From Methyloversatilis sp. (lineage in GTDB: Bacteria > Pseudomonadota > Gammaproteobacteria > Burkholderiales > Rhodocyclaceae): a stretch of 64,000 bases of DNA. A program made the position numbers and the translations under genes. The stretch lies in the NCBI RefSeq assembly GCF_030698125.1, contig NZ_JAUYNV010000017.1, forward strand, positions 1 through 64,000. The letters are read 5' to 3'. Under the pieces are notes generated by a model. The model searched no databases, was not told the DNA's origin, and saw only the letters and a program-made list of their open reading frames with translations. Positions 23,606 to 55,483 of this stretch are shown here, one piece after another. The first letter of the stretch is position 1. Every line of letters begins with the position of its first letter.

Positions 23606-23622
23606 TGTCGGATATCTTTACA
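23606..23622 (+). promoter_or_regulatory. Candidate sigma-54 activator site 1 (PEP-CTERM motif)
   Basis: TGTCGGATATCTTTACA, 68 bp upstream of the sigma-54 element at 23674. The same 17-bp pattern (TGTCG-N7-T-N-ACA, an imperfect TGTC/GACA dyad) occurs at 28280 and 55399 before the other PEP-CTERM units. It is proposed to be the enhancer of a sigma-54 activator such as PrsR; this is inference. Confidence 0.6.
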
Positions 23623-23673
23623 ACACACATTTTTGTAGTTATCAAGTAATTGATTTTATTTGATATTAAAAAC

Positions 23674-23689
23674 TGGCCTTAATTTTGCT
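23674..23689 (+). promoter_or_regulatory. Sigma-54 promoter of the XDP1-like gene
   Basis: TGGCCTTAATTTTGCT matches TGGCACG-N4-TTGCW at the invariant GG (-24) and GC (-12) with exact spacing. It lies 51 bp before the start codon, which would give a leader of roughly 40 bases, in an AT-rich intergenic stretch. Confidence 0.75.
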
Positions 23690-23739
23690 ATGAAGTTACT
23701 GACAGTCAGTCATAGTCAATGACTTCCAAGGATCAAATG

Positions 23740-24519
23740 ATGAAAAAGAAAAGCCTGAAAATCCTGAGTGCCGCTCTGCTGATCGGTTTGAGCGGTGCCG
23801 CATCGGCTGCGTCGACGAGCTGGTCATTCACCTCCACCGCAACGTCATCGGTCAGTGCAAGCGGCTTTGCGTCGCAAGTCGCCGAGTATTCGGCGATGAC
23901 GTACACCAATGGTGCAGGCAATTCGGTCACGATGAATGCGTTCGCGAACACAGCCTCCAACGCGAAGATCGAAGCTGCATACCTGAACTATCAAGGGTCT
24001 AGCGGTCTGGGCGTCACGAGCCGCGACAGCAGCACGAATGACGAGGTAACGTCATCCGGTTATCTGAACAACCCGCAGCACTCGTTCGACAATCAGGGCG
24101 CAGTCGAGTCCATCCTGTTCTCTTTCTCGTCGGCGTTCACGATGGAACAGCTCGATATCGGATGGTCGACAAACGATTCTGACCTCCAACTTTACGCTTA
24201 CACCAGCTCGACCCCCTTTTCGACGTCTACGGTTCTTGGCAAGGATTATTCGACGCTGACCGGCTGGACCAAGGTTGGCGACTTCACCGGCCCGACCGAT
24301 CCGCGCCTGACGACCAACAGCACGTATTCGCGTTATTGGCTCGTCACGCCGGGGCCGGCTTCTGACAAGCTGGATTACATCAAACTGGCGGGCATCACCG
24401 GCTCGTACAAGCCGACGACGCCGCCGCCCTCGACCGGCGTACCTGAGCCGGAATCGCTGGCCCTCGTTGGCGTGGCACTGGCCGGCATGCTCCTGACCCG
24501 TCGCCGCAAGCTGGTCTGA
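23740..24519 (+). CDS. PEP-CTERM surface protein, XDP1-like
   Basis: 259 residues: signal peptide (about 1-23, MKKKSLKILSAALLIGLSG), a Ser/Thr-rich secreted region, and a C-terminal sorting tail of VPEPESLALVG, a hydrophobic helix and RRRKLV. The exosortase is expected to cut near PEP. The body (ESILFSFSSAFTMEQLDIGW, DSDLQLYAYT) resembles the exosortase-dependent surface protein XDP1 family as I remember it. ATG 23740 is preferred over 23737 because of its spacing to AAGGA. It has its own sigma-54 promoter and an upstream shared motif. Confidence 0.88.
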   Translation: MKKKSLKILSAALLIGLSGAASAASTSWSFTSTATSSVSASGFASQVAEYSAMTYTNGAGNSVTMNAFANTASNAKIEAAYLNYQGSSGLGVTSRDSSTNDEVTSSGYLNNPQHSFDNQGAVESILFSFSSAFTMEQLDIGWSTNDSDLQLYAYTSSTPFSTSTVLGKDYSTLTGWTKVGDFTGPTDPRLTTNSTYSRYWLVTPGPASDKLDYIKLAGITGSYKPTTPPPSTGVPEPESLALVGVALAGMLLTRRRKLV

Positions 24520-24533
24520 TCGGTTGAGGCAAC

Positions 24534-24564
24534 AAAAAAAACCGCGCAACGCGCGGTTTTTTTT
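24534..24564. terminator. Bidirectional terminator
   Basis: An A-run, ACCGCGC (24541-24547), loop AAC, GCGCGGT (24551-24557) and a T-run to 24564. It can terminate both the PEP-CTERM gene and the convergent ABC transporter gene. Confidence 0.9.
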
Positions 24565-24598
24565 CGTCCATCGCCGGCGCCAGCGGAGAGTGATGTTG

Positions 24599-27701: not shown

Positions 27702-27931
27702 GTCCCGAGAGGCGGCCGGATATCGGGTTCTTGAAGGAAAGCGGGGGGGGGGCCGGCAAGTCCGAAGCGGGCTGAGCGCTCGCCTGCCGCAGCCTGCAGA
27801 CAGCAGTCAGGATGGGCGCGCGACCGACCGTGTCTGGTGGCATGCCTGCGCCGGATGTTTCCGGACCTGCTCCCTTATTGCCGCAGGGCTGCGGCAGGTC
27901 GCCGGATCGAAGGGGCCCTGGTGCGACCCGG

Positions 27932-28138: not shown

Positions 28139-28279
28139 GTGCGTCTCCAACTGGTATCCGGTCTTCACAGGGACCCGGATGCATCGTAGCTGCCCGGTGC
28201 AAGCTGTGGTTCCGGGTGCATCGGGATCCTGGTGCGAAACAGAACTTCACGCGCAAAGTTCAGGAAATGGTTCACGAGG

Positions 28280-28296
28280 TGTCGGTAAATCTTACA
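28280..28296 (+). promoter_or_regulatory. Candidate sigma-54 activator site 2 (PEP-CTERM motif)
   Basis: TGTCGGTAAATCTTACA, 89 bp upstream of the sigma-54 element at 28369. Its TGTCGG and TTACA ends are identical to site 1 and its distance differs by 21 bp, two helical turns. Confidence 0.6.
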
Positions 28297-28368
28297 TCGC
28301 ACGATCCGCTTCATTTGAGTGGAATCTCAATGAACTGAAAATAAAGAGTTTTTCGGTAATTAAATCGA

Positions 28369-28384
28369 TGGCACAGCAATTGCT
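28369..28384 (+). promoter_or_regulatory. Sigma-54 promoter of the second PEP-CTERM gene
   Basis: TGGCACAGCAATTGCT matches the -24/-12 consensus TGGCACG-N4-TTGCW at every conserved position but one. It is 40 bp before the start codon, giving a leader of about 30 bases. Confidence 0.85.
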
Positions 28385-28423
28385 GGTAATGACTCACGAA
28401 AACCTACAGCGTCAGGAGCTTCC

Positions 28424-29146
28424 ATGAAGTACGCCCTCAACTCAGTCGCTGCGCTCGTTGCATTCGCCAGCACTGCAGCTTTCGCTGCGCCGATCACGCC
28501 GTCGAGTACCGCACTGCAAACCCTGTCGGGTGCCACATTTGGCGGGTCGGGCATTCCGAATACCGCAGTCCAGGTGCTTGCAGTGGACCCGACGATGGCA
28601 GATGTAACCATCGGCCTGACCGCACATCAGCGTTTCACCGGCCCGAATCTGGTCAATAACGGCACCAGCACTTTCGAAGCCGCGACCGGTGTGTCCGCAA
28701 GCCCGCCGTCTTCGCCTGCCGATCCCTACGCATTGTGGAACTTCGCGTTCTATGTGGGTGGTGACGACATTTCGAATTACGTGTTCCGGTTGTACTACGA
28801 CTTCGATCCGGCCAGCGGCACGGACGAAGCCAATCACGGTGTGATCGAGTTTCTCGGTTCGACGTTGCAGGGTGCGGCGATCCAGAATTCGTTCAATCTC
28901 GGTATGGATTTCCTCGCCACGAGCATCCCCGGCGTCATCACCGCACCTCTCGGTTCGTTCTCGCCGACGGTAGAAGGCGAATACACCTTCGCGCTGACCG
29001 CCATACTCGAGCGGGTTGAGGTGGGTCGCGTGGCCATTCTGGTCGACGTCAATAACCCGGGCACGCCGATTCCGGAACCGGGCACGCTTGCACTCGCGAG
29101 CCTTGCGCTGCTCGGTCTTGCCGGCCTGCGCCGCCGCTTCAGCTGA
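28424..29146 (+). CDS. PEP-CTERM sorting domain protein
   Basis: 240 residues: signal peptide (about 1-21, ending AAFA), a secreted body with NYVFRLYYDFDPASGTDEAN, and a C-terminal tail IPEPGTLALASLALLGLAGL then RRRFS. The tail marks it as an exosortase substrate destined for the envelope or extracellular matrix. I do not recognise the body. It has its own sigma-54 promoter and upstream motif, AGGAG before the ATG, and a terminator 38 bp after the stop. Confidence 0.88.
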   Translation: MKYALNSVAALVAFASTAAFAAPITPSSTALQTLSGATFGGSGIPNTAVQVLAVDPTMADVTIGLTAHQRFTGPNLVNNGTSTFEAATGVSASPPSSPADPYALWNFAFYVGGDDISNYVFRLYYDFDPASGTDEANHGVIEFLGSTLQGAAIQNSFNLGMDFLATSIPGVITAPLGSFSPTVEGEYTFALTAILERVEVGRVAILVDVNNPGTPIPEPGTLALASLALLGLAGLRRRFS

Positions 29147-29184
29147 CAGTCGCCTCCGCGCTCGTGCGCGGATGGTGGCCGCAC

Positions 29185-40154: not shown

Positions 40155-40171
40155 TTAAACGAACGTTTGAA
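40154..40171 (+). promoter_or_regulatory. TetR-family operator (palindrome)
   Basis: TTTAAACGAACGTTTGAA is an 8-2-8 inverted repeat with one mismatched pair. It starts at the last base of the -10 and covers the expected transcription start, 16 bp before the TetR gene. The AAACG/CGTTT arms resemble operators of fatty-acid-responsive TetR proteins such as PsrA. Confidence 0.75.
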
Positions 40172-40187
40172 TGAGGGCTGTGCAGGC

Positions 40188-40871
40188 ATGGATGTCCGTC
40201 GCACTTCGCTGACCGCGCACGAAACCCGCAGCCGCATTCTCGATGCGGCGCAGGCCCTGTTCGTGGCACACGGTTTCGAGGCGACGTCGATGCGCATGAT
40301 CACCGGCGACGCCGGCGTCAATCTTGCGGCGGTGAACTACCACTTCGGTTCGAAGGACGTACTGGTGCGCGAGGTGCTGAAGCGCCATCTGCAGCCGCTG
40401 AACGCGCAGCGCATGCAGGCACTCGATGCGGCCGAAGCCGCGGCCGGCGAGCAGCCGGTGAAGCCGCACCGCATCGTCGATGCGTTCTTCAGCAGTTCGC
40501 TCGATCTGGCGTCAGGCAGTGCTGCCGGGCGTGAATTCATGCAGTTGCTCGGCCGCACCTTCACCGAACCGTCACCGTCCGTGCGCGAATATCTCGCGAC
40601 CGAATACGCGCCGGTGATCGGCCGTTACCGCGATGCGTTCTGCCGCGCGCTGCCGACGGTGCCGGTCGAGGAAATCCTGTGGCGCCTGCATTTCATGCTG
40701 GGCGCCATGTCGTACGCGGTGTCGGGCATCGATTCGCTGCAGGTGCTGACCGGCGTGCGCATCGATGAGCCGGACGCCATGCAGCGCATGCGGCCGCGCC
40801 TGATGAGTTTCCTGCTCGGCGGTTTGCGGGCGCCACTTCCTGCGGGCGACGGCGCGGACGAAACAACGTAG
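40188..40871 (+). CDS. TetR-family (PsrA-like) fatty-acid regulator
   Basis: 227 residues from the ATG at 40188 (MDVRRTSLTAHETRSRILDA). An N-terminal HTH (DAAQALFVAHGFEATSMRMI, NYHFGSKDVLVREVLKRHL) is followed by a ligand domain with FMQLLGRTFTEPSPSVREYL, as in PsrA-type regulators that release DNA on binding acyl-CoA or free fatty acid. It opens a co-directional run of beta-oxidation genes and has a palindrome over its own start site, so autorepression of the whole operon is likely. Confidence 0.87.
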   Translation: MDVRRTSLTAHETRSRILDAAQALFVAHGFEATSMRMITGDAGVNLAAVNYHFGSKDVLVREVLKRHLQPLNAQRMQALDAAEAAAGEQPVKPHRIVDAFFSSSLDLASGSAAGREFMQLLGRTFTEPSPSVREYLATEYAPVIGRYRDAFCRALPTVPVEEILWRLHFMLGAMSYAVSGIDSLQVLTGVRIDEPDAMQRMRPRLMSFLLGGLRAPLPAGDGADETT

Positions 40872-40938
40872 CGGAACAGGGTGCAACGGCCGACGATGGC
40901 CTGCACACCGGAGCGAAGCACCGAGGAGGGGAAACGAC

Positions 40939-43419
40939 ATGACCTGGATAGTGTTGCTGCTGGTGCCTGTGGGCATCGTACTGCTGGGCTACCTGCGCGC
41001 GCCGCTGCTCGTGAGCACCGTGGCGGCTGCCGCGTGGCTGGTGGCGGCCAGCCTGCATTTCGACTGGCCGGTGGCGATGAATGTCGCGGTTGCGCTGCTG
41101 GCGGGCGTGCCGGCACTGCTGCTGAACGTGCCGGCGCTGCGCCGTGCGGTCATTTCAAAACCGCTGTTGAAGGTTTACCGAAACATCCTTCCGCCGATGT
41201 CCGACACCGAACGCATCGCGCTGGAAGCCGGCACCGTGTGGTGGGAAGGCGAACTGTTCCGCGGCCACCCGGACTGGTCCGTGCTGCACGCCTATCCGGA
41301 GCCGACGCTGAGCGCGGAAGAACAGGCCTTCCTCGACAACGAGGTCGAACAGCTGTGCCGCCTGTCCGACGACTGGACCATTTCGCACGAATTGAAGGAC
41401 TTGCCGCCCGAGGCGTGGCAGTACATCAAGGATGCCGGCTTCCTCGGCCTCATCATTCCGAAGCAGTACGGCGGCAAGCAGTTTTCGGCCTGGGCGCATT
41501 CGCAGATCGTGACCAAGCTGTCGACGCGCTGCTCCGCCTCGGCGGTCACCGTGATGGTGCCCAACTCGCTCGGCCCGGCCGAACTGCTGCTGCACTACGG
41601 CACCGACGCGCAGAAGGATCACTACCTGCCGCGCCTGGCCAGGGGGCTGGAGATTCCGTGTTTCGCACTCACCAGCCCGCAGGCCGGCTCGGACGCGGCG
41701 TCGATTCCGGACTTCGGCATCATCTGCAGGGGCGAATATCAGGGCCGCGAAGTACTGGGCATGCGCGTCACCTGGGACAAGCGCTACATCACGCTGGGTC
41801 CGGTCGCGACACTGCTCGGTCTGGCGTTCCGGCTGTACGACCCGGACCACCTGCTGGGCGACACCGAAGATATCGGCATCACCTGCGCACTGATTCCGAC
41901 CGATCACCCGGGCGTCGAAATCGGCCGCCGCCACTTCCCGCTGAACGCGGTGTTCCAGAACGGACCGAACTGGGGCCGCGACGTATTCATGCCGATCGAG
42001 TGGATCATCGGCGGCCCGGCGATGGCCGGGCAGGGCTGGCGCATGCTGATGGAGTGCCTCGCCGCCGGTCGCTCGATTTCGCTGCCGGCGTCGAACACCG
42101 GCATGGCCAAGCTCACCGCGCGCGCCGTCGGCGGCTATGCGCGCGTGCGCAGCCAGTTCAAGACTGCGATCGGCCGCTTCGAAGGCATCCAGGAACCGCT
42201 GGCCCGCATCGGCGGCCACCTGTACATGATGGACGCGGCACGTCGCATGACTGCCGGCGCCATCGACCTGGGCGAAAAGCCCTCGGTGGTGTCGGCCATC
42301 GTGAAATACCACATCACCGAGCGCGCGCGCATCGTCGTCAATGACGGCATGGACATCCTTGGCGGCAAGGGCATCTGTCTGGGGCCGTCGAATTTCCTCG
42401 GCCGCGCCTACCAGCAGATCCCGATCGGCATCACGGTCGAGGGCGCGAACATCCTGACACGCAGCCTGATCATCTTCGGCCAGGGCGCCATCCGCTGCCA
42501 TCCGTACGTGCTGCGCGAAATGCGCGCCGCGCTGGCCGACGACACGCCGGCGGCGCTGGCCGAATTCGACGATGCGCTGTTTTCGCACATCGGCTACACC
42601 GCCAGCAATGCGATACGCGCGCTGGTGACCGGCCTGACCGGTTCGCACTGGGTTGGCGTGCCGAGTGGCGTGGCGCCGGAAACGCACCGTTACTACCAGC
42701 AGCTCACGCGCTTTTCGACCGCCTTCGCGTTCATTTCGGATGCCGCGATGCTCACCATGGGCGGCGATCTGAAGCGCAAGGAAAAACTGTCGGCGCGGCT
42801 GGGCGACATCCTTTCGCAGATGTATCTGTGCTCGGCCACGTTGAAGCGCTACGAAGCCGATGGCCGGCAGGCGGCCGACGCGCCGCTGATGCACTGGGCC
42901 ATGTGGGACGCGATGTTCCATGCCCAGACCGCATTCGAAGGCGTGATGTCCAACTTCCCGAATCGCGCCATCGCCATCCTGCTGCGCCGTCTGATCTTTC
43001 CGCTCGGCCGGCCGTATGTGGTGCCGTCGGACCGGCTCGGCGGCGAGGTGGCGAATCTGCTGATCGAGCCGTCCGCGACGCGCGACCGGCTGACCGCCGG
43101 CATGTACATCCCCGACGACGAACACGACCCGGTCGGCGTCATCGAACACGCGCTGAACGCGACGATCGCCGCCGAAACCATCGAAGCACGTGTGCGCGCG
43201 GCGCAGAAGAAGGGTGTGCTGAAAGCGCACGGGGCCGGGCTGATGCAGGCCGCGTTCGACGCCGGCCTGATCGAGGCCGCCGAATTCGCGCTGATCCGCC
43301 GGCGCGACGAACTGCGTGACCGGGTCGTCCGGGTGGACGACTTCCCGCAGGATTTCGGTGTCGATGCGGTGAGCACACCGCCGGCCGAATCGCACAACGT
43401 CACCGCGATCGCCGCCTGA
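40939..43419 (+). CDS. fadE: Acyl-CoA dehydrogenase, FadE type
   Basis: 826 residues, the length of the FadE class, catalysing the first step of beta-oxidation (acyl-CoA to trans-2-enoyl-CoA) with electrons passed to ETF or quinone. Two N-terminal membrane segments (residues 1-60, MTWIVLLLVPVGIVLLGYL) are followed by the ACAD fold (EAWQYIKDAGFLGLIIPKQY; CFALTSPQAGSDAASI; NDGMDILGGKGICLGPSN) and the FadE C-terminal domain. GAGGAGGGG precedes the ATG, 68 bp after tetR. Its stop overlaps the thiolase start. Confidence 0.93.
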   Translation: MTWIVLLLVPVGIVLLGYLRAPLLVSTVAAAAWLVAASLHFDWPVAMNVAVALLAGVPALLLNVPALRRAVISKPLLKVYRNILPPMSDTERIALEAGTVWWEGELFRGHPDWSVLHAYPEPTLSAEEQAFLDNEVEQLCRLSDDWTISHELKDLPPEAWQYIKDAGFLGLIIPKQYGGKQFSAWAHSQIVTKLSTRCSASAVTVMVPNSLGPAELLLHYGTDAQKDHYLPRLARGLEIPCFALTSPQAGSDAASIPDFGIICRGEYQGREVLGMRVTWDKRYITLGPVATLLGLAFRLYDPDHLLGDTEDIGITCALIPTDHPGVEIGRRHFPLNAVFQNGPNWGRDVFMPIEWIIGGPAMAGQGWRMLMECLAAGRSISLPASNTGMAKLTARAVGGYARVRSQFKTAIGRFEGIQEPLARIGGHLYMMDAARRMTAGAIDLGEKPSVVSAIVKYHITERARIVVNDGMDILGGKGICLGPSNFLGRAYQQIPIGITVEGANILTRSLIIFGQGAIRCHPYVLREMRAALADDTPAALAEFDDALFSHIGYTASNAIRALVTGLTGSHWVGVPSGVAPETHRYYQQLTRFSTAFAFISDAAMLTMGGDLKRKEKLSARLGDILSQMYLCSATLKRYEADGRQAADAPLMHWAMWDAMFHAQTAFEGVMSNFPNRAIAILLRRLIFPLGRPYVVPSDRLGGEVANLLIEPSATRDRLTAGMYIPDDEHDPVGVIEHALNATIAAETIEARVRAAQKKGVLKAHGAGLMQAAFDAGLIEAAEFALIRRRDELRDRVVRVDDFPQDFGVDAVSTPPAESHNVTAIAA

Positions 43420-44702
43420 TGACCTTATCCGACGTTTTCGTGGTCGATGGCGCGCGCACGCCCTTCCTGAAGTCGCGCAACGCGCCCGGCCCGTTCGCCG
43501 CGGCCGACCTCGCGGTGGCGGCCGGCAGTGCGCTGCTGTCGCGCCAGACCTTCCGGCCGGATCAGCTCGACGAAGTCATCCTCGGCTGCGCGGCGCCCTC
43601 TGCCGACGAAGCGAACATCGGTCGCATCGCTGCACTGCGCCTGGGCTGTGGCGACCGCGTGCCGGGCTGGACGGTGATGCGCAACTGCGCGAGCGGCATG
43701 CAGGCACTCGATTCGGGCATTGCCAACATCCGGCTCGGACGCGCCGATCTGGTGCTGGCCGGCGGCGTCGACGCCCTGTCGCGTGCCCACCTGCTGTTTT
43801 CCGACGCCATGGTGCGCTGGCTGTCGCAGTGGTACGCGGCCAGAGGCATCGGCGCGCGCGCGCTGCTGCTGACGAAATTGCGCCCCGGCATGCTGGCGCC
43901 GGTCATCGGTCTGCTGAAAGGCCTGACCGATCCGGTCATCGGCATCAATATGGGCCAGACCGCCGAAAACCTCGCCGCGCGCTTCGGCATCAGCCGCACA
44001 CAGATGGATTTCCACGCCATGCGTTCGCACCAGCGCACCGCCGCCGCGCTCGATGCCAGCCATTTCGGCGAAGTCGTGCCGATCGCCGACGCCGGTGGAC
44101 ATATCTATACGGAGGACGACGGCGTACGACGCGATTCGTCGGTGCCGCGGCTGGCAAAGCTGCGCCCGGTGTTCGACCGCGCGCAGGGTCACATCACGGC
44201 CGGCAACAGTTCGCAGGTGACCGACGGTGCGGCCTGGTTGCTGCTGGCGTCGCGCAAGGCGGTGGATGAGCATGGCCTGACGCCGCTCGGCCGCATCGTC
44301 GACACCGAGTGGGCCGGACTGGACCCGGCGCAGATGGGACTGGGCCCGGTGCACGCCGCCACACCCATCCTGCAGCGTCACGGTCTCGGGCTGAACGATC
44401 TTGATGCCTGGGAAATCAACGAAGCCTTCGCCGCTCAGGTCATCGGCTGCATCGAGGCGTGGAAAAGCGATGACTACTGCCGCACCGAACTGGGCCTGCC
44501 CGGCGCGCTCGGCACGCTCGATGAGCGCCGGCTGAATGTCGACGGCGGCGCCATTGCGATCGGTCACCCGGTCGGCGCAAGCGGTGCACGCATCGTGCTC
44601 CACCTGCTGCAGGTGCTGCGCCGGCAGGGTGGCGGCCGCGGCATCGCGGCCATCTGCATCGGCGGCGGGCAGGGCGGTGCCATGCTGGTGGAAACGACGT
44701 GA
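43419..44702 (+). CDS. fadI: Acetyl-CoA C-acyltransferase (FadI-type thiolase)
   Basis: 427 residues; thiolytic cleavage of 3-ketoacyl-CoA. The nucleophilic C90 is in RNCASGMQALDSG, the catalytic histidine in GGAIAIGHPVGASGAR and the second cysteine in CIGGGQGGAML. The length and an inserted loop around SQWYAARGIGARALL match the longer FadI class rather than FadA. It is coupled by one-base overlap to fadE and by 4 bp to the next gene, its expected trifunctional partner. Confidence 0.9.
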   Translation: MTLSDVFVVDGARTPFLKSRNAPGPFAAADLAVAAGSALLSRQTFRPDQLDEVILGCAAPSADEANIGRIAALRLGCGDRVPGWTVMRNCASGMQALDSGIANIRLGRADLVLAGGVDALSRAHLLFSDAMVRWLSQWYAARGIGARALLLTKLRPGMLAPVIGLLKGLTDPVIGINMGQTAENLAARFGISRTQMDFHAMRSHQRTAAALDASHFGEVVPIADAGGHIYTEDDGVRRDSSVPRLAKLRPVFDRAQGHITAGNSSQVTDGAAWLLLASRKAVDEHGLTPLGRIVDTEWAGLDPAQMGLGPVHAATPILQRHGLGLNDLDAWEINEAFAAQVIGCIEAWKSDDYCRTELGLPGALGTLDERRLNVDGGAIAIGHPVGASGARIVLHLLQVLRRQGGGRGIAAICIGGGQGGAMLVETT

Positions 44703-46651
44703 GCGCCGAAATGACACAAGGGCTCGAGCACTGGCGCCTCGAGCGCGACGCGGAAGGCATCGCCTGGCTCACTTTCGACCGGGCCGGCGAAAGCGTGAAT
44801 ACATTGTCCGGTGAAGTCATGCGCGAACTGGCCGGCGTGCTCGACACATTCGACGCCGCGCCGCCGCGTGGGCTGGTGATCCTGTCCGGCAAGGCAAGCG
44901 GCTTCATCGCCGGCGCCGACATCGCCGAATTCGGACAGGTGAGCGATCTGGCCGGCGCGCGGGCGCTGATCGAACGCGGCTGGAACCTGTTCAACCGGCT
45001 GGCGGCCGTGCGCTACCCGACCTGTGCGCTGGTGCGCGGTTTCTGCGTTGGCGGCGGCACAGAACTGGCGCTGGCCTGCGACCGCATCGTCGCAGTCGAT
45101 GACCCCGGTACCCGCTTTTCGCTGCCCGAAGTGATGCTGGGCATCGTGCCCGGCTGGGGCGGCATGCTGCGCCTGCCGGCCCGCATCGGCGCACCGGCGG
45201 CGCTGGACATGATGCTGACCGGCCGCGCGCTCGACGTGCGCCGTGCGAAGTCGCTTGGTCTGGTCGACGACATCGCGCCGGCGCGGCTGATGCGCGAACA
45301 TGCGGGTGCCGCCGTGCTGTCGGGCGCGCCGCGCAAGCCGCTGCCGCTGCTGAAGCGCCTGCTGTCCGGGCCGCTGCGCAGCGTGGTGGCGAAGAAGGCC
45401 ATGGCCGGCGTGGCCAAGCGCGCCAGTCGCCGGCACTACCCGGCGCCGTACGCCATCATCGACATGTGGCGCGATTTCGGCGGCAATGCGCTGGCCGTGC
45501 CGGCGGGGCATGCTTCATCGATGGGCGCACTTGTCGCCCATCCGACCACCGCCAACCTGCAGCGCGTGTACCACCTGCGCGAGCGCTTGCGCGGCTTCGG
45601 CAAGCCGGAAGGCGTCGAGCTGCCGGTGGTCCGCCACGTACATGTGGTGGGTGCCGGCGTCATGGGTGGCGACATCGCGGCCTGGTGCGCGTTGCGCGGC
45701 TTTCGGGTGACGCTGCAGGACAGCAGTGCCGAACGCATCGCCCCGGCGCTGCAGCGCGCCGCGAAGGCCTGGGGCCGCAAGTTCCGGCGCGACCGGCGCG
45801 GTCTGCGCGGCGCGCTCGACCGGTTGGTGCCGGACGTGACCGGCGCGGGTATCGCGGGGGCTGACGTCATCATCGAAGCCATCTACGAAGACCTCGACGC
45901 GAAGCAGGCGCTGTTTCGTGACATCGAACGGCGCGCGAAGCCCGACGCGCTGATCGCCAGCAACACCTCCAGCCTGCGCATCGAGGACATCGCGGCCTGC
46001 CTGCGCACGCCGTCGCGGCTGGTCGGCATCCATTTCTTCAATCCGGTGGCGCAGATGCCGCTGGTCGAAGTGGTGAGCGGCGCCGCCAGCGATCCGCTGG
46101 CCGTGCAACGCGCCGCGGCCTTCGTCGGCGCGCTCGACAAGTTGCCGCTGCCGGTGGCCAGCAGTCCGGGTTTCCTCGTCAATGCGGTACTCGGCCCCTA
46201 CATGCTGGAAGCGATGAAGTGCGTTGATGAGGGCATTGCACCCGAGGTGGTTGACCGCGCGGCACAGGATTTCGGCATGGCCATGGGGCCGGTCGAACTG
46301 ATCGATACCGTCGGGCTCGACATCGCCCTGGCCGCTGGTGCGCGGCTGACCGGCAGTGCCCAGGCGCCGGCCTGCCTGCAGCGCCATGTCGATGCCGGCC
46401 GACTCGGGCGCAAGACCGGCAGCGGATTCTACGAGTGGACCGACGGCAAACCTCAACGTGGTGCGGTATCGTCCGTGCCCGACGGACTGACCGACCGGCT
46501 GCTTGCGCCGCTGATCGCCGTCACGCGGCGCTGCGTCGAACAGCAGGTGGTCGCCGATGCCGATCTGGCCGACGCCGGCCTGATCTTCGGCGCCGGCTTT
46601 GCCCCGTGGACCGGCGGCCCGCTGCACCATGAACGCCTGAAACCTCACTGA
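44699..46651 (+). CDS. fadJ: Enoyl-CoA hydratase/3-hydroxyacyl-CoA dehydrogenase, FadJ-like
   Basis: 650 residues starting at a GTG (44699) overlapping the thiolase stop; an ATG at 44711 is an alternative. The N-terminal hydratase (about 1-290) has SGKASGFIAGADIAEF and CVGGGTELALACDR. The dehydrogenase has the NAD motif GAGVMGGDIAAWCAL (about 320) and HFFNPVAQMPLVEVV. It handles steps 2 and 3 of beta-oxidation with FadI. The order, hydratase first, is the FadB/FadJ order, opposite to that of the 799-residue protein downstream. Confidence 0.88.
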   Translation: MSAEMTQGLEHWRLERDAEGIAWLTFDRAGESVNTLSGEVMRELAGVLDTFDAAPPRGLVILSGKASGFIAGADIAEFGQVSDLAGARALIERGWNLFNRLAAVRYPTCALVRGFCVGGGTELALACDRIVAVDDPGTRFSLPEVMLGIVPGWGGMLRLPARIGAPAALDMMLTGRALDVRRAKSLGLVDDIAPARLMREHAGAAVLSGAPRKPLPLLKRLLSGPLRSVVAKKAMAGVAKRASRRHYPAPYAIIDMWRDFGGNALAVPAGHASSMGALVAHPTTANLQRVYHLRERLRGFGKPEGVELPVVRHVHVVGAGVMGGDIAAWCALRGFRVTLQDSSAERIAPALQRAAKAWGRKFRRDRRGLRGALDRLVPDVTGAGIAGADVIIEAIYEDLDAKQALFRDIERRAKPDALIASNTSSLRIEDIAACLRTPSRLVGIHFFNPVAQMPLVEVVSGAASDPLAVQRAAAFVGALDKLPLPVASSPGFLVNAVLGPYMLEAMKCVDEGIAPEVVDRAAQDFGMAMGPVELIDTVGLDIALAAGARLTGSAQAPACLQRHVDAGRLGRKTGSGFYEWTDGKPQRGAVSSVPDGLTDRLLAPLIAVTRRCVEQQVVADADLADAGLIFGAGFAPWTGGPLHHERLKPH

Positions 46652-46673
46652 ACCCTTTTTTGAGCATCGATCC

Positions 46674-47069
46674 ATGAATGATTCCGTACAGTCCCTGCCC
46701 GACGACCAACCCGCGCTGCGCCTGCTGCCGATGCCACGCGACCTCAACGCCGCGGGCGACATTTTCGGCGGCTGGGTCATGTCGCAGGTGGATGTGGCCG
46801 GTTCAATCGCGGCCATGCGTCGCACCCGCTCACGCGTGGTGACGGTGGCCGTCAATTCCTTCGTGTTCCTGCAGCCGATCACCACCCAGTACCTCGTGTC
46901 CTTCTATGCGTCGGTGGCGCGGGTCGGCAACACCTCGATCACGGTCGATGTATCGGTCTATGCGGAAACGGGTTACGAAAACATACACATAAAGAAGGTG
47001 GCGGAGGCGACGTTGACCTATGTTGCAGTGGGCGAAGAGGGGCAGAAGCTGAATATTCCGAAAGATTGA
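46674..47069 (+). CDS. Acyl-CoA thioesterase, YciA type
   Basis: 131 residues with a single hot-dog domain: LRLLPMPRDLNAAGDIFGGW, the catalytic Asp in DIFGGWVMSQVDVAG, and TVAVNSFVFLQPI. It hydrolyses acyl-CoA to free fatty acid and CoA, likely to relieve CoA sequestration. It lies 22 bp after fadJ in the same direction. The C-terminal KKVAEATLTYVAV is canonical. Confidence 0.9.
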   Translation: MNDSVQSLPDDQPALRLLPMPRDLNAAGDIFGGWVMSQVDVAGSIAAMRRTRSRVVTVAVNSFVFLQPITTQYLVSFYASVARVGNTSITVDVSVYAETGYENIHIKKVAEATLTYVAVGEEGQKLNIPKD

Positions 47070-47154
47070 CCGTTGCAGCGCTGAACGGTCACGTCGACCC
47101 TGTCTTCAGATATGAAGCGGGGCGGGGCAACGCATAACCAGGCGAGGAGCTGAA

Positions 47155-48441
47155 ATGTCATCACACAACAAATGTGCAAGTCCCGATCTGCCGTTCGCAC
47201 GTCTGGCCGTGCTGATCGGGCTGACGATGCCCGGCCAGGCCATGGCGGCCGGCTTTGCCATACAGAACCAGAACGGCGCTGGTACGGCAACGGCATTTGC
47301 CGGCGCGGCCGCCGTCGCGGACGACGCCAGCACGATCTACTTCAACCCGGCCGGCATGACCTATCTGCCGATGGGTCACAGCATTTCGGTCGCCGGCACG
47401 CTGCTGCACCGGTCGCTGAAATTCGATGACCGCGGTTCGAATGCGCTGGGCCCGTTTCCGCTCGGCGATGACGGCGGCGAGGGTGGCGGGCTGTCGCTGA
47501 TTCCGGCCGGCTACTACAGCTATGCGATCAATGACCGTTTCCGCATCGGTGTCGGCGTGTCGGCCACCTTCGGCAACAAGACCGACTACAACACCACCTT
47601 CCTCGGCCGCTTCCAGGGCAATTACGTCGACCTGAAGGCGCTGAACATCAATCCGTCGGTCGCCTGGCGCGTCAATGATCAGTTGTCGATCGGCGCCGGC
47701 ATCAGCTTCGTCAAGCTCGAAGGCGACATCCAGCAGCAGCTTCCAATAGGCGGCTTCCCGAATGCGCGCAACCGGCTCGAAGCCGACGACACGGCGATGG
47801 GATTCAACGTCGGCCTGATGTATCAGGTGACGCCGGCGATGCGCGTCGGCATGTCGTATCGCTCGAAGATCGACCTTCGGTTAGAAGGAGAATCGACCCG
47901 TTCGGGCGTCGGAGCGGAACTCGTCACACCCGCCTTCGCCAAGATCGAACTGCCCGATACCTTTTCCGTGGCGGTGCATCAGCAGCTGAACGAGCGCTGG
48001 GAAATGATGGGCGACTACACCTGGACGGGCTGGTCGTCGTTCAAATCGCTCGACGTGCGCAATGGCAACACCGGCGGACCCATCACGAATCCGGAGTACG
48101 ACTTCCGTGACAGCTGGCGCATCGGTTACGGCGCGGCCTACAAGTACACCGAAGCGCTGAAGCTGCGCTTTGGCGTTGCGTTCGACAAGTCGCCAGTGCA
48201 TGACGAAACGACACGCACGCTGACGCTGCCGGACAGCGACCGCTACTGGGTGGCGATCGGTGCGCGCTATGCGCTGTCGCCGAAATCGACGATCGACATC
48301 GGCTACGCGCACATCTTCTTCGACCGCGAAGGCATCGACCGGCGCACCATCGTCGGCACCACCCCGACCGGCCAGATCATTCGCGGCAAGTTCGACACCA
48401 GCGCCGACCTGCTGTCGGTGCAGTACAACCAGACCTTCTGA
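47155..48441 (+). CDS. fadL: Long-chain fatty acid outer-membrane transporter, FadL/OmpP1
   Basis: 428 residues, a signal peptide (cleavage expected near AMAAG, residue 30) and a FadL-type beta-barrel. The N-terminal hatch and first strand have NGAGTATAFAGAAAVADDAS and YFNPAGMTYLPMG, hallmark sequences. The last residue is Phe (QYNQTF), the usual outer-membrane protein end. It imports long-chain fatty acids. It is 85 bp after the thioesterase and 106 bp before the next gene. Confidence 0.92.
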   Translation: MSSHNKCASPDLPFARLAVLIGLTMPGQAMAAGFAIQNQNGAGTATAFAGAAAVADDASTIYFNPAGMTYLPMGHSISVAGTLLHRSLKFDDRGSNALGPFPLGDDGGEGGGLSLIPAGYYSYAINDRFRIGVGVSATFGNKTDYNTTFLGRFQGNYVDLKALNINPSVAWRVNDQLSIGAGISFVKLEGDIQQQLPIGGFPNARNRLEADDTAMGFNVGLMYQVTPAMRVGMSYRSKIDLRLEGESTRSGVGAELVTPAFAKIELPDTFSVAVHQQLNERWEMMGDYTWTGWSSFKSLDVRNGNTGGPITNPEYDFRDSWRIGYGAAYKYTEALKLRFGVAFDKSPVHDETTRTLTLPDSDRYWVAIGARYALSPKSTIDIGYAHIFFDREGIDRRTIVGTTPTGQIIRGKFDTSADLLSVQYNQTF

Positions 48442-48547
48442 TGCCGCGCCGGCCGGCGTCCGCAAGGCGCCGGTCACTGTGCTGCGCCTGATTCTTCCCT
48501 GAACCGGCGGCGCATCGCCGCCGGCCCTCCAACCTCGGGAGACCGCC

Positions 48548-50947
48548 ATGTCCCGTCCCATCGCCCTTCAGTTCCGGATCCGTCGCGTGGCCGTGCTCGG
48601 TGCCGGCGTCATGGGTGCGCAGATCGCTGCGCACTGCGCCAATGCCAATGTATCGGTCGTACTGTTCGACCTCGCCGCGAAGGAGGGCGACCCGGACGGC
48701 ATCGTCAAACGCGCGCTCGACGGCCTGAAAAAGCTCGAACCGGCGCCGCTGGCCACTGCCGACCGGCTGGCACTGATCGACATCGCCAACTACGACCGCG
48801 ACCTCGCGCGGCTGGGCGAGTGCGATCTGGTGATCGAAGCGATCGCCGAACGCATGGACTGGAAGCACGGCCTGTACGCGAAAGTGGCGCCGCATCTGCG
48901 CGCCGACGCCATCTTCGCCAGCAACACGTCGGGCCTGTCGATCAACGCACTGGCCGACGGTTGCCCGGACAGCCTGCGCAGCCGCTTCTGCGGCGTGCAC
49001 TTCTTCAATCCGCCGCGCTACATGTCGCTGGTCGAGCTGATCCCGTCGCGCTCGACCGACGCGGCGCTGCTCGATGCGCTGGAAACCTTCCTGACGACGA
49101 CGCTGGGCAAGAGCGTGGTGCGCGCGCTCGACACGCCGAACTTCGTCGCCAACCGGGTCGGCGTGTTTTCGATGCTGGCGGCGATGCACCACACCGAGCG
49201 CCTCGGCCTGGGCTTCGACGAGGTCGATGCGCTGACCGGCCCGGCGATCGGCCGGCCGAAGTCCGCCACCTACCGGACCGCCGACGTGGTCGGGCTGGAC
49301 ACGCTGCTGCATGTCGTGAAGACCATGACCGACAACCTGCCGGCCGACCCGTGGCACCGCTACTACACCGCGCCGGCCTGGCTCGCGGCGCTGGTCGGCC
49401 AGGGCGCGCTGGGCCAGAAGACGAAGGCCGGCGTGTATCGCAAGGACGGCCGGCAGATCAAGGTGCTGGATCTGGCGACGCAGGACTACCGCGATTCGGC
49501 CGGCGCCGTGGCCGAGGAGGTGCAGGTCATCCTGGCCGAGCGTGATCCGCAGATGAAGCTCGCGGCGCTGCGTGCGTCGGCACACCCGCAGGCGCAGTTC
49601 CTGTGGTCCGTCTTCCGCGACGTGTTCCATTACGTGGCCTTTCATCTGGCGGACATCGCGCACACCGCGCGCGACGTCGATTTCGCGATGCGCTGGGGCT
49701 TCGGCTGGCAGACCGGGCCGTTCGAAACCTGGCAGGCCGCCGGCTGGCAGCAGGTCTCCGGCTGGCTGCGCGATGACATTGCCGCCGGTCGCACCATGAG
49801 TGACGCTCCGTTGCCGGCCTGGGTGTTCGAGCGCCACGCGGCGCATGAGGCCGCCGGATCGTGGTCGGCGTCGGCCGCCGCGCTGCAGCCGCGTGCATCG
49901 CTGCCGGCCCATGCACGCCAGCTGTTTCCCGAACTCGTGCTCGGCGAGATGCCGCGTGCCACGCACACGATCTGGGAAGGCGACGAGGTGCGGCTGTGGA
50001 CGCTGGATGATGCCGATGGCGCGCGCGCGCCGGTGCTGTCGTTCAAGAGCCGCATGTCGGCCATCGGGCCGAAGGTGCTCGAAGGCGTGCGCGAAGCCAT
50101 CGCCCGCGCCGAGCGCGACTTCGATGCACTGGTCATCTGGCAGCCGCAGGGGCCGTTTTCGGTCGGCGCCAACCTGAAGCAGATCCGGCCGGTGCTCGAA
50201 GCCGGTGATTTCAAGGCGCTGGATGGCGTCATCAACGATTTCCAGCAGGCGTCGCAGGCGATCAAGCACGCACAGATTCCGGTCATCACCGCGGTGCAGA
50301 ACATGGCGTTGGGCGGCGGCTGCGAATTCGTCATGCATTCGCCGCGCGCCGTGGTGGCGCTGGAAAGCTATATCGGGCTGGTGGAAGCGGGCGTCGGCCT
50401 GATTCCGGCCGGCGGCGGCTGCAAGGAATTCGCGCTGCGCGCAGCGCGCGCCGCCGAAGCGTCGGCGACGAAGGACCCGATGAATTTCCTGCAGTCGGTG
50501 TTCCAGACCATCGCCATGGCGCAGGTGTCGAAAAGCGCGCGTCACGCGCAGGAACTGGGCCTGCTGAAGCCGGACGACGTGGTGGTGATGCATGCGCACG
50601 AACTGCTGCATGTGGCGCGTCGCAACGCGGTCGCCATGGCCGACAGCGCCTGGCGCCCGGCGCTGCAGGCGTCGAACATCATGGTGGCCGGGCGCAGCGG
50701 CATCGCCACGCTGGAAATGATGCTGGTGAACATGCGAGAGGGCGGCCTGATTTCGGCGCACGACTATCGCGTCGCGCGCGCGGCCGCCGTGGCGCTGTGC
50801 GGCGGCGAAATCGAAACCGGCTCGCGTGTGAGCGAGCAGTGGCTGCTCGAAGTCGAGCGCGCGGAATTCGTCGCGCTGCTGCGAACGCCGGAAACGCAGG
50901 CGCGCATCGCGCACATGATGGACACCGGCAAACCGCTGCGCAATTGA
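48548..50947 (+). CDS. 3-Hydroxyacyl-CoA dehydrogenase/enoyl-CoA hydratase (dehydrogenase first)
   Basis: 799 residues. The N-terminal NAD(P) domain (VAVLGAGVMGAQIAAHCANA, about 13-32) and dehydrogenase core (SNTSGLSINALADGCPDSLR, HFFNPPRYMSLVELI) precede a C-terminal crotonase domain (FSVGANLKQIRPV; ITAVQNMALGGGCEFVMHSP). This order is that of the Bacillus FadN type, distinct from FadB/FadJ. It pairs with the FadA-type thiolase 11 bp downstream. GGGAGACCGCC precedes the ATG. Confidence 0.9.
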   Translation: MSRPIALQFRIRRVAVLGAGVMGAQIAAHCANANVSVVLFDLAAKEGDPDGIVKRALDGLKKLEPAPLATADRLALIDIANYDRDLARLGECDLVIEAIAERMDWKHGLYAKVAPHLRADAIFASNTSGLSINALADGCPDSLRSRFCGVHFFNPPRYMSLVELIPSRSTDAALLDALETFLTTTLGKSVVRALDTPNFVANRVGVFSMLAAMHHTERLGLGFDEVDALTGPAIGRPKSATYRTADVVGLDTLLHVVKTMTDNLPADPWHRYYTAPAWLAALVGQGALGQKTKAGVYRKDGRQIKVLDLATQDYRDSAGAVAEEVQVILAERDPQMKLAALRASAHPQAQFLWSVFRDVFHYVAFHLADIAHTARDVDFAMRWGFGWQTGPFETWQAAGWQQVSGWLRDDIAAGRTMSDAPLPAWVFERHAAHEAAGSWSASAAALQPRASLPAHARQLFPELVLGEMPRATHTIWEGDEVRLWTLDDADGARAPVLSFKSRMSAIGPKVLEGVREAIARAERDFDALVIWQPQGPFSVGANLKQIRPVLEAGDFKALDGVINDFQQASQAIKHAQIPVITAVQNMALGGGCEFVMHSPRAVVALESYIGLVEAGVGLIPAGGGCKEFALRAARAAEASATKDPMNFLQSVFQTIAMAQVSKSARHAQELGLLKPDDVVVMHAHELLHVARRNAVAMADSAWRPALQASNIMVAGRSGIATLEMMLVNMREGGLISAHDYRVARAAAVALCGGEIETGSRVSEQWLLEVERAEFVALLRTPETQARIAHMMDTGKPLRN

Positions 50948-50957
50948 GGAGACAGTC

Positions 50958-52157
50958 ATGACACGACAGATCCAGGACGCCTACATCGTCGCCGCGAAGC
51001 GCACGGCCGTGGCGCGCAAGAACGGTGCCTTCCGCCATGTGCGGCCGGACGACATGCTGGCGCACGTGCTGCGCGGTACGGTCGACGCCGTGCCGGCCTT
51101 CGATCTGAACGACATCGGCGACGTCGTCGTCGGCTGCGCGATGCCGGAGGGCGAACAGGGCATGAATGTGGCGCGCATCGGCGTGCTGCTGGCCGGTTTT
51201 CCGGTGTCGGTGCCGGGCATCACGGTGAACCGTTTCTGCGCCAGCGGCCTGAATGCGGTGGCCGATGCTGCGATGAAGATCATGACCGGGCAGTGCGACA
51301 TCGCCATCGGCGCCGGCACCGAATCGATGACCGTCATGCCGACCATGATGGGCAACAAGGTGACGGTCAATCCGCGTGCCTTCGAGTCGGACGATCACGT
51401 CGCCATCGCCTACGGCATGGGCCTGACCGCGGAAAAGGTCGTGCAGCAGTATGGCGTGTCGCGCGAAGACCAGGACGCCTTCGCGCTGGCGTCGCACCAC
51501 AAGGCGCTGGCCGCGATCGCCGCCGGCCGCTTCCGCGACGAGGTGCTGCCCTACACCGTGCGCAGCCATCTGCCCGATCTGGCGAGCAATACGGTACGCA
51601 TGACCGAGCGCATTTTCGACACCGATGAGGGGCCGCGCGCCGATTCGAGCGCGCAAGCGCTGGCGAAGCTGCGTCCGGCCTTTTCGGCGCGCGGCTCGGT
51701 CACCGCCGGCAACAGTTCGCAGATGTCGGATGGCGCAGCCGCCGTGCTGCTGATGTCGGAAGCCGCGATGACACGCACCGGCGCCGTGCCGATCGCCCGC
51801 TTCCGCAGCTTCGCGGTGGCCGGCGTGCCGCCTGAAATCATGGGCATCGGTCCGGTCGAGGCGATCCCGAAGGCACTGAAGCTGGCCGGCGTTGCGCAGG
51901 ACGACATCGACTGGATTGAGCTCAACGAAGCCTTCGCCGCGCAGGCGCTGGCGGTGATGCGCACGCTGGGGCTGGACCCGGCGAAGGTGAATCCGCTCGG
52001 TGGGGCCATCGCACTCGGTCACCCGCTGGGCGCCACCGGTGCCATACGCACCGCCACCGTCATCGCCGCGATGCAGCGCGGCGAGGCGCGCATCGGCATG
52101 GTAACGATGTGCATCGGCACCGGCATGGGCGCCGCCGGGATATTCGAGAAGGTGTGA
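50958..52157 (+). CDS. fadA: Acetyl-CoA C-acyltransferase (FadA-type thiolase)
   Basis: 399 residues, the usual thiolase length. The nucleophile is C94 (NRFCASGLNAVADAAMK), the general base histidine is in GGAIALGHPLGATGAIRT and the second Cys is in MVTMCIGTGMGAAG. It starts after GAGGAGACAGTC, 11 bp after the dehydrogenase/hydratase. It is the last gene of the fatty-acid block. A GC-rich hairpin near 52185 without a T-run follows. Confidence 0.92.
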   Translation: MTRQIQDAYIVAAKRTAVARKNGAFRHVRPDDMLAHVLRGTVDAVPAFDLNDIGDVVVGCAMPEGEQGMNVARIGVLLAGFPVSVPGITVNRFCASGLNAVADAAMKIMTGQCDIAIGAGTESMTVMPTMMGNKVTVNPRAFESDDHVAIAYGMGLTAEKVVQQYGVSREDQDAFALASHHKALAAIAAGRFRDEVLPYTVRSHLPDLASNTVRMTERIFDTDEGPRADSSAQALAKLRPAFSARGSVTAGNSSQMSDGAAAVLLMSEAAMTRTGAVPIARFRSFAVAGVPPEIMGIGPVEAIPKALKLAGVAQDDIDWIELNEAFAAQALAVMRTLGLDPAKVNPLGGAIALGHPLGATGAIRTATVIAAMQRGEARIGMVTMCIGTGMGAAGIFEKV

Positions 52158-52211
52158 GCGCGCGTCGGCGCCGACGGTCGGAACCGGCGATATGCCGGTC
52201 CCGGATCAGCC

Positions 52212-52931: not shown

Positions 52932-53018
52932 GAAAACTCCTGTTGGGGCGCTGTGTTGGCGGCCCCGATGGGCCTGATTTACTTCGTGCGTGACGTCGTG
53001 TGCTAATTCGTGCGCCAA

Positions 53019-54185: not shown

Positions 54186-54286
54186 CGCGAAAATGACCGC
54201 ACGGATGAAAGACCCGCGATTGTCCGGCCGGGCCGCCATTCTTGACAAGACCCGGTCGCTCCACGACAATCCACGGCCTTTCAAAG

Positions 54287-54363
54287 GGTGATGTAGCTCA
54301 GCTGGTTAGAGCGACGGATTCATAATCCGTAGGTCGAGGGTTCAAGTCCCCCCATCACCACCA
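54287..54363 (+). tRNA. tRNA-Met (CAT anticodon)
   Basis: 77 bases including an encoded CCA. The acceptor GGTGATG pairs with CATCACC, the D-arm is GCTC...GAGC, the anticodon arm ACGGATTCATAATCCGT has CAT in its loop and the T-arm contains GGTTCAAGTCC. The elongator-type body suggests Met; a lysidine-modified tRNA-Ile(CAT) cannot be fully excluded by eye. A weak G+C hairpin with TTTTCGTTT follows at about 54373-54400. Confidence 0.92.
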
Positions 54364-54467
54364 GCTTTCAAGCGGCTCCCAGCGATGGGGGCCGTTTTCG
54401 TTTCCGGGCGCTTCGTTTCGGACGGACTTCAAGGCCTCTTCTGGCGACAAGACGCTCACCCCTGAAT

Positions 54468-55148
54468 TCACGGCTGCGCCGTCAGGTACAGCCAGATTTC
54501 ATTGCGCCGCATGAACCAGGGTGTGAACGGCGCGTTGTAGCGCGAAAATACCGGCTCGCCGGCCCACTTCATGTCGGCGGCGCGCAGTGCCGACTGCAGC
54601 CGGCCCAGATGCTCGGTGTAATTCGATTCTGACCAGAAGCCCGAGTAGCGGATGACGGCCACCTGACCGGGCGATACGTCGCGCAGCTGGATGCGCGCAT
54701 CGAGCGGCTCCGGTGCGTCGGCCGCCGTCACGCCCCTGGGCAGCACGAACTGCACGAGGAAACCCGCTTGCGATGCGGTCTGGGTGACCGGGGCGGTCAT
54801 CGGCAGCTTCACAGGCGCCGGGGCCTGCGTGACCGGTGCCGTCATCGCGAACTTCTTCTCGCCCTTGTTCTTGCCGAAGATGTATCCCGCCAGGATCGGG
54901 AAAGCCTGGCTGCCCGCTTCGTCCGCGGGCCCGGGTACCACGACCTCGGCCACCGTGTAGTCGGCGTACTGCCGCACCTCGAAATCAGCCTGTGTGCGGA
55001 CCACCTGGTATTCGGGTTCTTCCGTGGCGTGCAGGGGCATGGAAAGGCCGAACAGCATGAGTGTCGAGACCAGCAGCTTGCCCCACGCGGGCACGAGCCG
55101 GGTTGGCACGAAGGGGGAAACAGGATGCATCGGTACGGGCCTCATCAT
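54468..55148 (-). CDS. SOUL-family haem-binding protein
   Basis: About 226 residues from the ATG at 55148; ATGs at 55145 and 55130 are also possible and no ribosome binding site settles it. An N-terminal signal/anchor (VSTLMLFGLSMPLHA) is followed by the SOUL domain (YQVVRTQADFEVRQYADYTV; KKFAMTAPVTQAP; YTEHLGRLQSALRAADMKWA; FMRRNEIWLYL). SOUL proteins bind haem or tetrapyrrole. It faces the PEP-CTERM tandem across a 456-bp gap. Confidence 0.88.
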   Translation of the reverse strand: MMRPVPMHPVSPFVPTRLVPAWGKLLVSTLMLFGLSMPLHATEEPEYQVVRTQADFEVRQYADYTVAEVVVPGPADEAGSQAFPILAGYIFGKNKGEKKFAMTAPVTQAPAPVKLPMTAPVTQTASQAGFLVQFVLPRGVTAADAPEPLDARIQLRDVSPGQVAVIRYSGFWSESNYTEHLGRLQSALRAADMKWAGEPVFSRYNAPFTPWFMRRNEIWLYLTAQP

Positions 55149-55398
55149 GATCACGACACTGAGGCCGATTTGCTGCACCGGGAGTTCAACAACCCGGCAT
55201 CAAACAGAAGCTTTCTTTTTCTTGGCGCCACCTCCGAAAGTGTTCCGACGCACTCGACGACGGGGTGCTTCGCATCGGCGAGCCGCATGCCCGGAGGCGG
55301 GTTCAGCTGACACGCATTGCCCGGTGCGGGCGGGTGGTGGCGAGACCCCGCACGGCAGGCGCACCACGGTTCCCCGCCCGTGTCCGCTTCGCCTTGGG

Positions 55399-55415
55399 TG
55401 TCGAACAATTTGACA
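55399..55415 (+). promoter_or_regulatory. Candidate sigma-54 activator site 3 (PEP-CTERM motif)
   Basis: TGTCGAACAATTTGACA, an almost perfect TGTC/GACA dyad 69 bp upstream of the sigma-54 element at 55468. It has the same spacing as site 1 and matches its conserved positions. A second partial dyad, TGACAGTACTTGTCA, overlaps its end at 55411-55425. The other 340 bp or so of the 55149-55604 gap hold no gene I can support. Confidence 0.65.
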
Positions 55416-55467
55416 GTACTTGTCACCGTGGTCGTTCAACCCGTTGTTCGAACAGACCTTGGACTGA

Positions 55468-55483
55468 TGGCTCGAATCTTGCA
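55468..55483 (+). promoter_or_regulatory. Sigma-54 promoter of the PEP-CTERM tandem
   Basis: TGGCTCGAATCTTGCA matches the -24/-12 consensus TGGCACG-N4-TTGCW with one mismatch outside the invariant GG and GC. It is 137 bp before the first start codon, giving a leader of about 110 bases. Confidence 0.8.

Follow-up and report, generated by a model that had tools for sequence, protein, structure and literature searches.

Probable PrsR-type sigma-54 promoters before PEP-CTERM genes of Methyloversatilis sp. and a possible second output, the HPr-rel-A operon

PEP-CTERM Genes and Promoter Elements in the Window

The DNA analysed here (the window) is a stretch of 64,000 nucleotides from Methyloversatilis sp. 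(NCBI RefSeq assembly GCF_030698125.1, contig NZ_JAUYNV010000017.1, positions 1 to 64,000). It holds four PEP-CTERM genes in three transcription units, the last two genes being in tandem, and before each unit lies a pair of plus-strand elements: a 17-bp upstream activator sequence (UAS), which is of the PrsR type (motif 1 of Haft et al. 2006), and a sigma-54 -24/-12 element. These pairs are read here as probable sigma-54 promoters under the activator PrsR. An earlier note, made from the sequence alone, had placed the six elements at these positions, and re-reading of the sequence confirmed them together with start-to-start distances of 68, 89 and 69 bp; its statement that all three PEP-CTERM transcription units carry the pair is true within the window. 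Gaps are counted here as the bases between the 17-mer and the T of TGG, and come to 51, 72 and 52 bp.

The first UAS (23606-23622, TGTCGGATATCTTTACA) is an exact motif and starts 5 bp past the stop codon of a prsT paralogue (TIGR02917, 20803-23601, plus strand), which lies directly upstream. It is followed by a site resembling the consensus of integration host factor (IHF) at 23640-23655, which matches WATCAANNNNTTR exactly on the plus strand (23640-23652) and on the minus strand (23643-23655), the latter match ending 18 bp before the -24 TGG, and by the sigma-54 element at 23674-23689 (TGGCCTTAATTTTGCT; gap 51 bp). The plus-strand PEP-CTERM gene downstream, at 23719-24519, encodes an exosortase-dependent surface protein of the XDP1 family (NF041927, 162 bits, cut-off 125). 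Its listed start at 23719 is probably too early; judged by eye, 23738 or 23741 is the likelier start codon, in an ATGATG with AAGGA before it.

The second unit has its UAS at 28280-28296 (TGTCGGTAAATCTTACA) and a full-consensus sigma-54 element at 28369-28384 (TGGCACAGCAATTGCT; gap 72 bp). Between them, at 28325-28340, are weak IHF-like sites with two mismatches (28325-28337 plus, 28328-28340 minus), the minus site ending 28 bp before the TGG. The gene that follows (28424-29146, plus strand) is assigned to PEP-CTERM by tail matches only, with TIGR02595 (21.7 bits) over its cut-off and other models below theirs. In the third unit, the UAS (55399-55415, TGTCGAACAATTTGACA) and the sigma-54 element (55468-55483, TGGCTCGAATCTTGCA; gap 52 bp) enclose weak IHF-like sites at 55434-55449, again with two mismatches (55434-55446 plus, 55437-55449 minus, the latter ending 18 bp before the TGG). 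They precede the tandem plus-strand genes at 55605-56831 and 56764-58056, both with PEPxxWA-like tails; no UAS of its own was found for the second.

The 17-bp UAS is an imperfect inverted repeat, and its three copies end in TTTACA (23606), CTTACA (28280) and TTGACA (55399). The UAS and the -24/-12 core are kept in all three named relatives found, all of them Methyloversatilis, and the IHF-like site at 23640-23655 is kept in two close relatives and changed in the third.

Occurrence of the Pair in the Genome and the Family

The exact 17-mer is present four times in the window, the fourth copy (17116-17132, minus strand) being followed by merely a sigma-54-like site with four mismatches, and exact TGGCNYN5TTGCW occurs at the three promoter sites and nowhere else in the window. 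When one mismatch was allowed, window scans for the single elements gave no excess over chance (16 matches vs 12.1 expected and 19 vs 18.3). It is the exact pair, not either element alone, that stands out.

The earlier note had called for a scan of the full genome, expecting enrichment before PEP-CTERM genes and one PEP-CTERM regulon. The strict pair, with 46-76 bp between the elements, occurs four times in the genome, and the relaxed pair (GG-N8-TTGCW, gap 38-98 bp) 11 times; the reversed pattern, used as a control, was not found in either form. Ten of the 11 relaxed pairs lie before PEP-CTERM genes, which bears out the enrichment, and the remaining one, on contig C21, precedes an HPr-rel-A operon. 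The regulon claim is supported, within limits: nearly all pairs precede PEP-CTERM genes, but there is a target of another kind, and only 14 of the 66 PEP-CTERM hits over cut-off in the genome have the pair (a sigma-54 site behind a UAS with no more than one mismatch). Most of the PEP-CTERM genes in this genome are therefore not marked by the pair.

Exact 17-mers number 47 genome-wide vs 14 for the reversed pattern. Sixteen of them are tied to promoters: 15 precede PEP-CTERM genes, including the copy at C1:78424, which has no sigma-54 site close enough, and one precedes the HPr-rel-A operon. The remaining 31 resemble background. UAS-like matches with two mismatches are found before many PEP-CTERM genes and were treated as noise. 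An exact UAS motif was also seen within the open frame of a PEP-CTERM hit (C1:32520-32536), with no good sigma-54 site after it.

Among 150 genomes of the same family, 281 relaxed pairs were found, vs seven with the reversed pattern (hand count). The off-by-one sigma-54 spacing GG-N9-TTGCW, an imperfect control in that runs of T can fit both the N8 and the N9 form, gave 34 pairs (11 reversed, hand count), 23 of them in genomes with PrsR. By simple rules, the genes after 148 sequenced pairs include 73 clear PEP-CTERM genes, 18 with a looser PEP-CTERM match and 14 HPr-rel-A lead genes, the last picked by eye for the lead protein.

The Element between UAS and Promoter

Sigma-54 promoters of the NifA/NtrC class, such as those of nifH and glnA, consist of a UAS, a site bent by IHF and a -24/-12 element, with the UAS usually roughly 100-200 bp away. 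The promoters described here are alike in their three-part layout, with an IHF-like site between activator site and promoter; unlike in that class, the UAS is nearer, ~50-95 bp from the -24 element. The layout was studied in the spacers of 148 distinct pairs, a set that excludes poor motif cores and in which 80 extra regions had been hand-picked, once the IHF-like element was noticed, so as to have good motif cores and to be spread over genomes. A match to the IHF consensus with at most one mismatch was found in 74 of these spacers, vs a mean of 16.8 in 200 dinucleotide shuffles (standard deviation 3.8, highest 27). A minus-strand site ending 18-20 bp before the TGG is present in 41 of the 148. 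Among the window promoters, one of three has an exact site.

The central AT-rich element might instead be a sigma-54 upstream (UP-like) element or a second, low-affinity activator site. This is unlikely, though it keeps appreciable weight: the spacers are rich in AT, the window has weak sites at two of its three promoters, and 24 of the 88 matches lie in the other orientation. Against it, matches to the IHF consensus go far beyond the dinucleotide shuffles, with 22 exact ones vs 0.98 expected. In addition, 64 of the 88 matches share the minus-strand orientation, and the best offset shifts from 18-20 bp to 30 bp in the 85-bp register. These observations are more consistent with a site at which IHF would bind.

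PrsR, RpoN and Their Link to the Pair

PrsR is the sole gene of this genome over the family cut-off, and prsK, prsR and prsT are adjacent to each other and beside exosortase-A-associated genes. Both rpoN and ihfA are present as well. In the 150 family genomes, 63 have PrsR and the pair, six PrsR only, 11 the pair only and 70 neither (Fisher p 2.5e-23); ten candidates were scored per genome, and some PrsR genes may be missed in these counts. Thus 69 genomes are PrsR-positive and 74 bear pairs, with 263 of the 281 pairs in the 69 PrsR-positive genomes and 18 in the 81 others. The proposal, made in the earlier note, that the 17-mer is the enhancer of PrsR gains support from this co-occurrence and from the presence of prsK-prsR-prsT and rpoN in the genome. 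Supporting genetics are reported for Zoogloea (prsK and prsR mutants) and for Aquincola (pepA, dependent on rpoN1).

The same promoter code could be genuine and be read by an NtrC-family activator other than PrsR. Many sigma-54 activators of this genome have sub-cut-off matches to the PrsR model, 11 of the 74 pair-bearing genomes have no PrsR hit, and in genome G243 another NtrC-family gene follows the UAS. Against such a reader speak the strong tie between pair and PrsR across 150 genomes and the place of PrsR as the one gene over the cut-off, encoded with PrsK and PrsT. Furthermore, prsK and prsR mutants of Zoogloea lose their PEP-CTERM-dependent flocs, as retold in PMC9012009. Another activator is thus considered improbable, and PrsR is the preferred reader.

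Genome G036, of the same family, has six pairs and no PrsR hit at E<=1e-150; G094 and G133, of its genus, have PrsR. The NtrC-family gene of G243 is at L327:4529-5950 on contig C85, has a PrsR-type UAS and a sigma-54 site before it, and scores 294.6 bits vs the PrsR cut-off of 502.6. L224 (G364) has a comparable, though short, open reading frame (ORF) behind its pair.

Two prsT paralogues are present in the genome, one at L142:11992-14787 beside prsK-prsR and one, at 20803-23601 in the window, that ends 5 bp before the UAS. Autoregulation of prsK, prsR and prsT was considered and is unsupported: the 19-kb locus L142 has three one-mismatch 17-mers, none of which lies in the 4.8 kb upstream of prsK on the prsK strand. 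Ahead of the window prsT, a plus-strand UAS with up to one mismatch was likewise not found between 20301 and 20900.

Helical Phasing of the UAS

In vivo, the helical repeat of DNA is near 11 bp, as derived from looping studies. Among the 150 family pairs listed out of the 281, the spacings between UAS and promoter cluster at 52, 63, 74 and 85 bp, with a Rayleigh R of 0.734 at 11 bp; over all periods tried, 500 uniform draws reached at most R 0.25. The spacings of this genome alone give R 0.71 (n=15). A class-wide sample of 369 genomes, of which 110 had a match, shows the same registers, with R 0.518 at 11 bp for 140 pairs outside this genome, among the matches listed. The reversed pattern was hit about 26 times class-wide (hand count), so some class pairs are chance matches. 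When the class pairs were divided by motif core, a split made after seeing the data, good cores gave R 0.648 (n=110) and poor cores R 0.042 (n=30), and the poor-core pairs behave as chance matches. The pooled period is 11.08 bp (bootstrap 95% 10.90-11.27). Spacings within 2 bp of a register make up 139 of the 150 from the family, 115 of the 140 from the class and 137 of the 148 in the sequence set, where 5 in 11 are expected.

Five registers, from 52 to 96 bp, recur in both samples, and a sixth near 41 bp has seven pooled pairs. Register 63 holds 73 of the 150 family pairs and 62 of the 110 class core pairs. This dominance of a register with about half of all pairs, and the fact that many pairs are paralogues within a genome or come from related species, would also fit 11-bp steps inherited from a few ancestral promoters under no present constraint. 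Descent alone is nevertheless judged improbable. The recurrence of five registers in both samples is hard to reconcile with it, as is the class core reduced to one pair per genome (n=50), which keeps p at ~4e-8; poor motif cores are unphased, and 23 promoters of the HPr-rel-A operon found by way of its kinase are phased too, some of these being identical to family-sample promoters. A present constraint on the spacing is therefore preferred. Because the UAS is only ~50-95 bp away, it would have to face the right side of the helix, and this in turn would explain the 11-bp steps, including the 51, 72 and 52 bp of the window.

Proposed Mechanism and Relation to Published Promoters

Chance, in the form of three coincidental pairs in one window, is a negligible explanation: a single element with one mismatch is found about as often as expected at random, but the genome scans, with four strict and 11 relaxed pairs vs no reversed ones, refute it.

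The sequences themselves show the pairs and how these are enriched, their link to PrsR, the helical phasing, an IHF-like element and a second target. Together these findings argue for the three window pairs being PrsR-type sigma-54 promoters, with PrsR as reader, a bend by IHF, a constraint on the helical face and joint switching, to which a probability of about 0.86 is given. From the sequences we infer which protein would bind which element, the looping and the signal. Phosphorylated PrsR, the partner of the kinase PrsK, would bind the 17-bp imperfect inverted repeat, and IHF would bend the DNA between UAS and promoter. PrsR would then contact RpoN-RNA polymerase at the -24/-12 element and open the promoter. 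Several PEP-CTERM surface proteins could in this way be switched on jointly with one HPr-rel-A operon that lies outside the window.

Several observations weigh against this mechanism. The 14 paired PEP-CTERM hits include one with a poor sigma-54 site, and 52 of the 66 have no recognisable pair of their own. Among the 148 downstream genes there are, by the simple rules, 25 other ORFs, eight cases with no ORF and ten that ran off the locus. The pair and PrsR are also separated at times, with no PrsR hit in 11 of the 74 pair-bearing genomes (one with six pairs) and no pair in six of the 69 PrsR-positive ones. Half of the 148 spacers have no IHF-like site within one mismatch, and the two-mismatch sites, the only ones at two of the three window promoters, prove nothing alone. 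The family R is nearly as high at 10.5 bp (0.692 vs 0.734). Finally, according to PMC9850573, floc formation in a prsK-region mutant of Aquincola was not restored by a plasmid with prsK or prsK-prsR.

The promoter code and PrsR as its activator were already published in 2006, and the finding in the window is a rediscovery. Haft et al. 2006 (PMC1569441) reported that PEP-CTERM genes are preceded by a 17-nt motif and a -24/-12 element, and put forward PrsR as the activator. The window promoters resemble these motif 1/motif 2 promoters, in which a 17-nt motif ending in TTTACA and a sigma-54 motif have PEP-CTERM genes downstream, and the gaps of 51, 72 and 52 bp are within the spacer range given there (mean 62.8, 32-92). 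As in the PrsR system of Haft et al., the genome encodes PrsK, PrsR, PrsT and RpoN. Phasing, IHF and HPr-rel-A are unmentioned in section 7 of that paper; provisionally, three things go beyond it: the helical phasing, the IHF-like element, and a recurrent second output in the shape of the HPr-rel-A operon. In searches that left most subscription papers outside, no paper was found on the HPr-rel-A cassette under two names and, judged by the titles listed, none on IHF at PEP-CTERM promoters and no survey of sigma-54 enhancer spacing of such kind.

A related promoter is reported in PMC9850573 for pepA of Aquincola tertiaricarbonis RN12, which depends on RpoN1 (rpoN1) and has a mapped -24/-12 start with a predicted enhancer upstream. 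Both there and in the window, a PEP-CTERM gene adjoins prsT; unlike pepA, which lies upstream of prsT, the window gene comes after it. The view that opens is of a promoter grammar composed of a phased UAS, an IHF-like bend site and a -24/-12 element.

The HPr-rel-A Operon as a Second Target

At L173:2253-5892 on contig C21, the pair is followed by genes for a protein of 258 aa whose start resembles a twin-Arg signal, an HprK_rel_A kinase (TIGR04352, 360 bits, cut-off 200) and an NTP_transf_5 nucleotidyltransferase (PF14907, 169 bits, cut-off 31), and then by rpiA. No ORF of at least 50 aa is present in this operon between the lead gene and the kinase gene, where a PqqD-like gene (TIGR04353) would be expected. 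In relatives, the small gene at this place matches PqqD_rel_X (TIGR04353) over the cut-off in six of ten cases, below it in two and not at all in two. In the 12 pair-bearing relative loci, picked by eye for the lead protein, HprK_rel_A comes next in all 12 (one a partial match near a contig end) and the nucleotidyltransferase is present in 11.

Loci were also picked by the kinase alone, as the best 30 of 62 kinase matches. A UAS (at most one mismatch) and a sigma-54 site (at most two) were found 1.0-1.35 kb upstream in 23 of the 30, and in none of the 30 with the reversed control; the other seven, one of them in a locus cut short, have no promoter by the same rules. These 23 promoters are phased (R 0.67 at 11 bp, p 3e-5; R 0.71 at 10.5 bp), and the 14 motif-found lead rows are less so (R 0.47). 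The kinase is present in 60 of the 150 family genomes, and 57 of these are PrsR-positive (p 1.6e-25).

The lead protein is probably secreted. In an alignment of 25 of the 34 leads, with eight divergent ones and one duplicate left out, no variation is seen in the twin Arg, in the two serines of an SxxxS stretch or in a single Trp. The rule used for lead ORFs found none in nine of 43 cassette loci and missed at least one real lead (L325). Seven lead proteins were compared with Pfam, and none had a match at E<=1; with NCBIfam, five of the seven had no match, and two matched far below cut-off, which was judged to be chance. The AlphaFold model of the lead protein is weak, with a predicted local distance difference test score (pLDDT) of 59.5 and a predicted template modelling score (pTM) of 0.59.

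In lasso-peptide tailoring, PMC8498205 describes an HPr-type kinase that phosphorylates Ser and a nucleotidyltransferase reported to add hexose. The HPr-rel-A system (TIGR04352, TIGR04353) is similar in kind, with its HprK-type kinase, nucleotidyltransferase and PqqD-like partner. Unlike the lasso systems as described there, it begins with a gene for a twin-Arg protein of ~150-290 aa, has no short precursor and carries a PrsR-type promoter. Because the lasso-peptide enzymes put phosphate and hexose on serine, it is proposed that the HPr-rel-A cassette modifies its own lead protein. Tentatively, and at somewhat less than even odds, the PrsK/PrsR-RpoN switch may have this cassette, with the PqqD-like protein as carrier, as a second conserved output: the lead would be phosphorylated and then glycosylated, most often on an SxxxS serine just past the signal-like start, so that a sugar-linked matrix protein would be produced alongside those sorted by exosortase. 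Eight further, divergent leads have no SxxxS at the tested place, which weighs against the serine proposal. Through its PrsR-type promoter the HPr-rel-A cassette would gain a place in biology, and if it does modify its lead, sugar-linked as well as sorted matrix proteins would come from the PrsR switch, a point of relevance to flocs and biofilms.

At 40167-52157 of the window, between the PEP-CTERM units, a TetR-type regulator gene is followed by genes for fatty-acid beta-oxidation and for a FadL-like porin.

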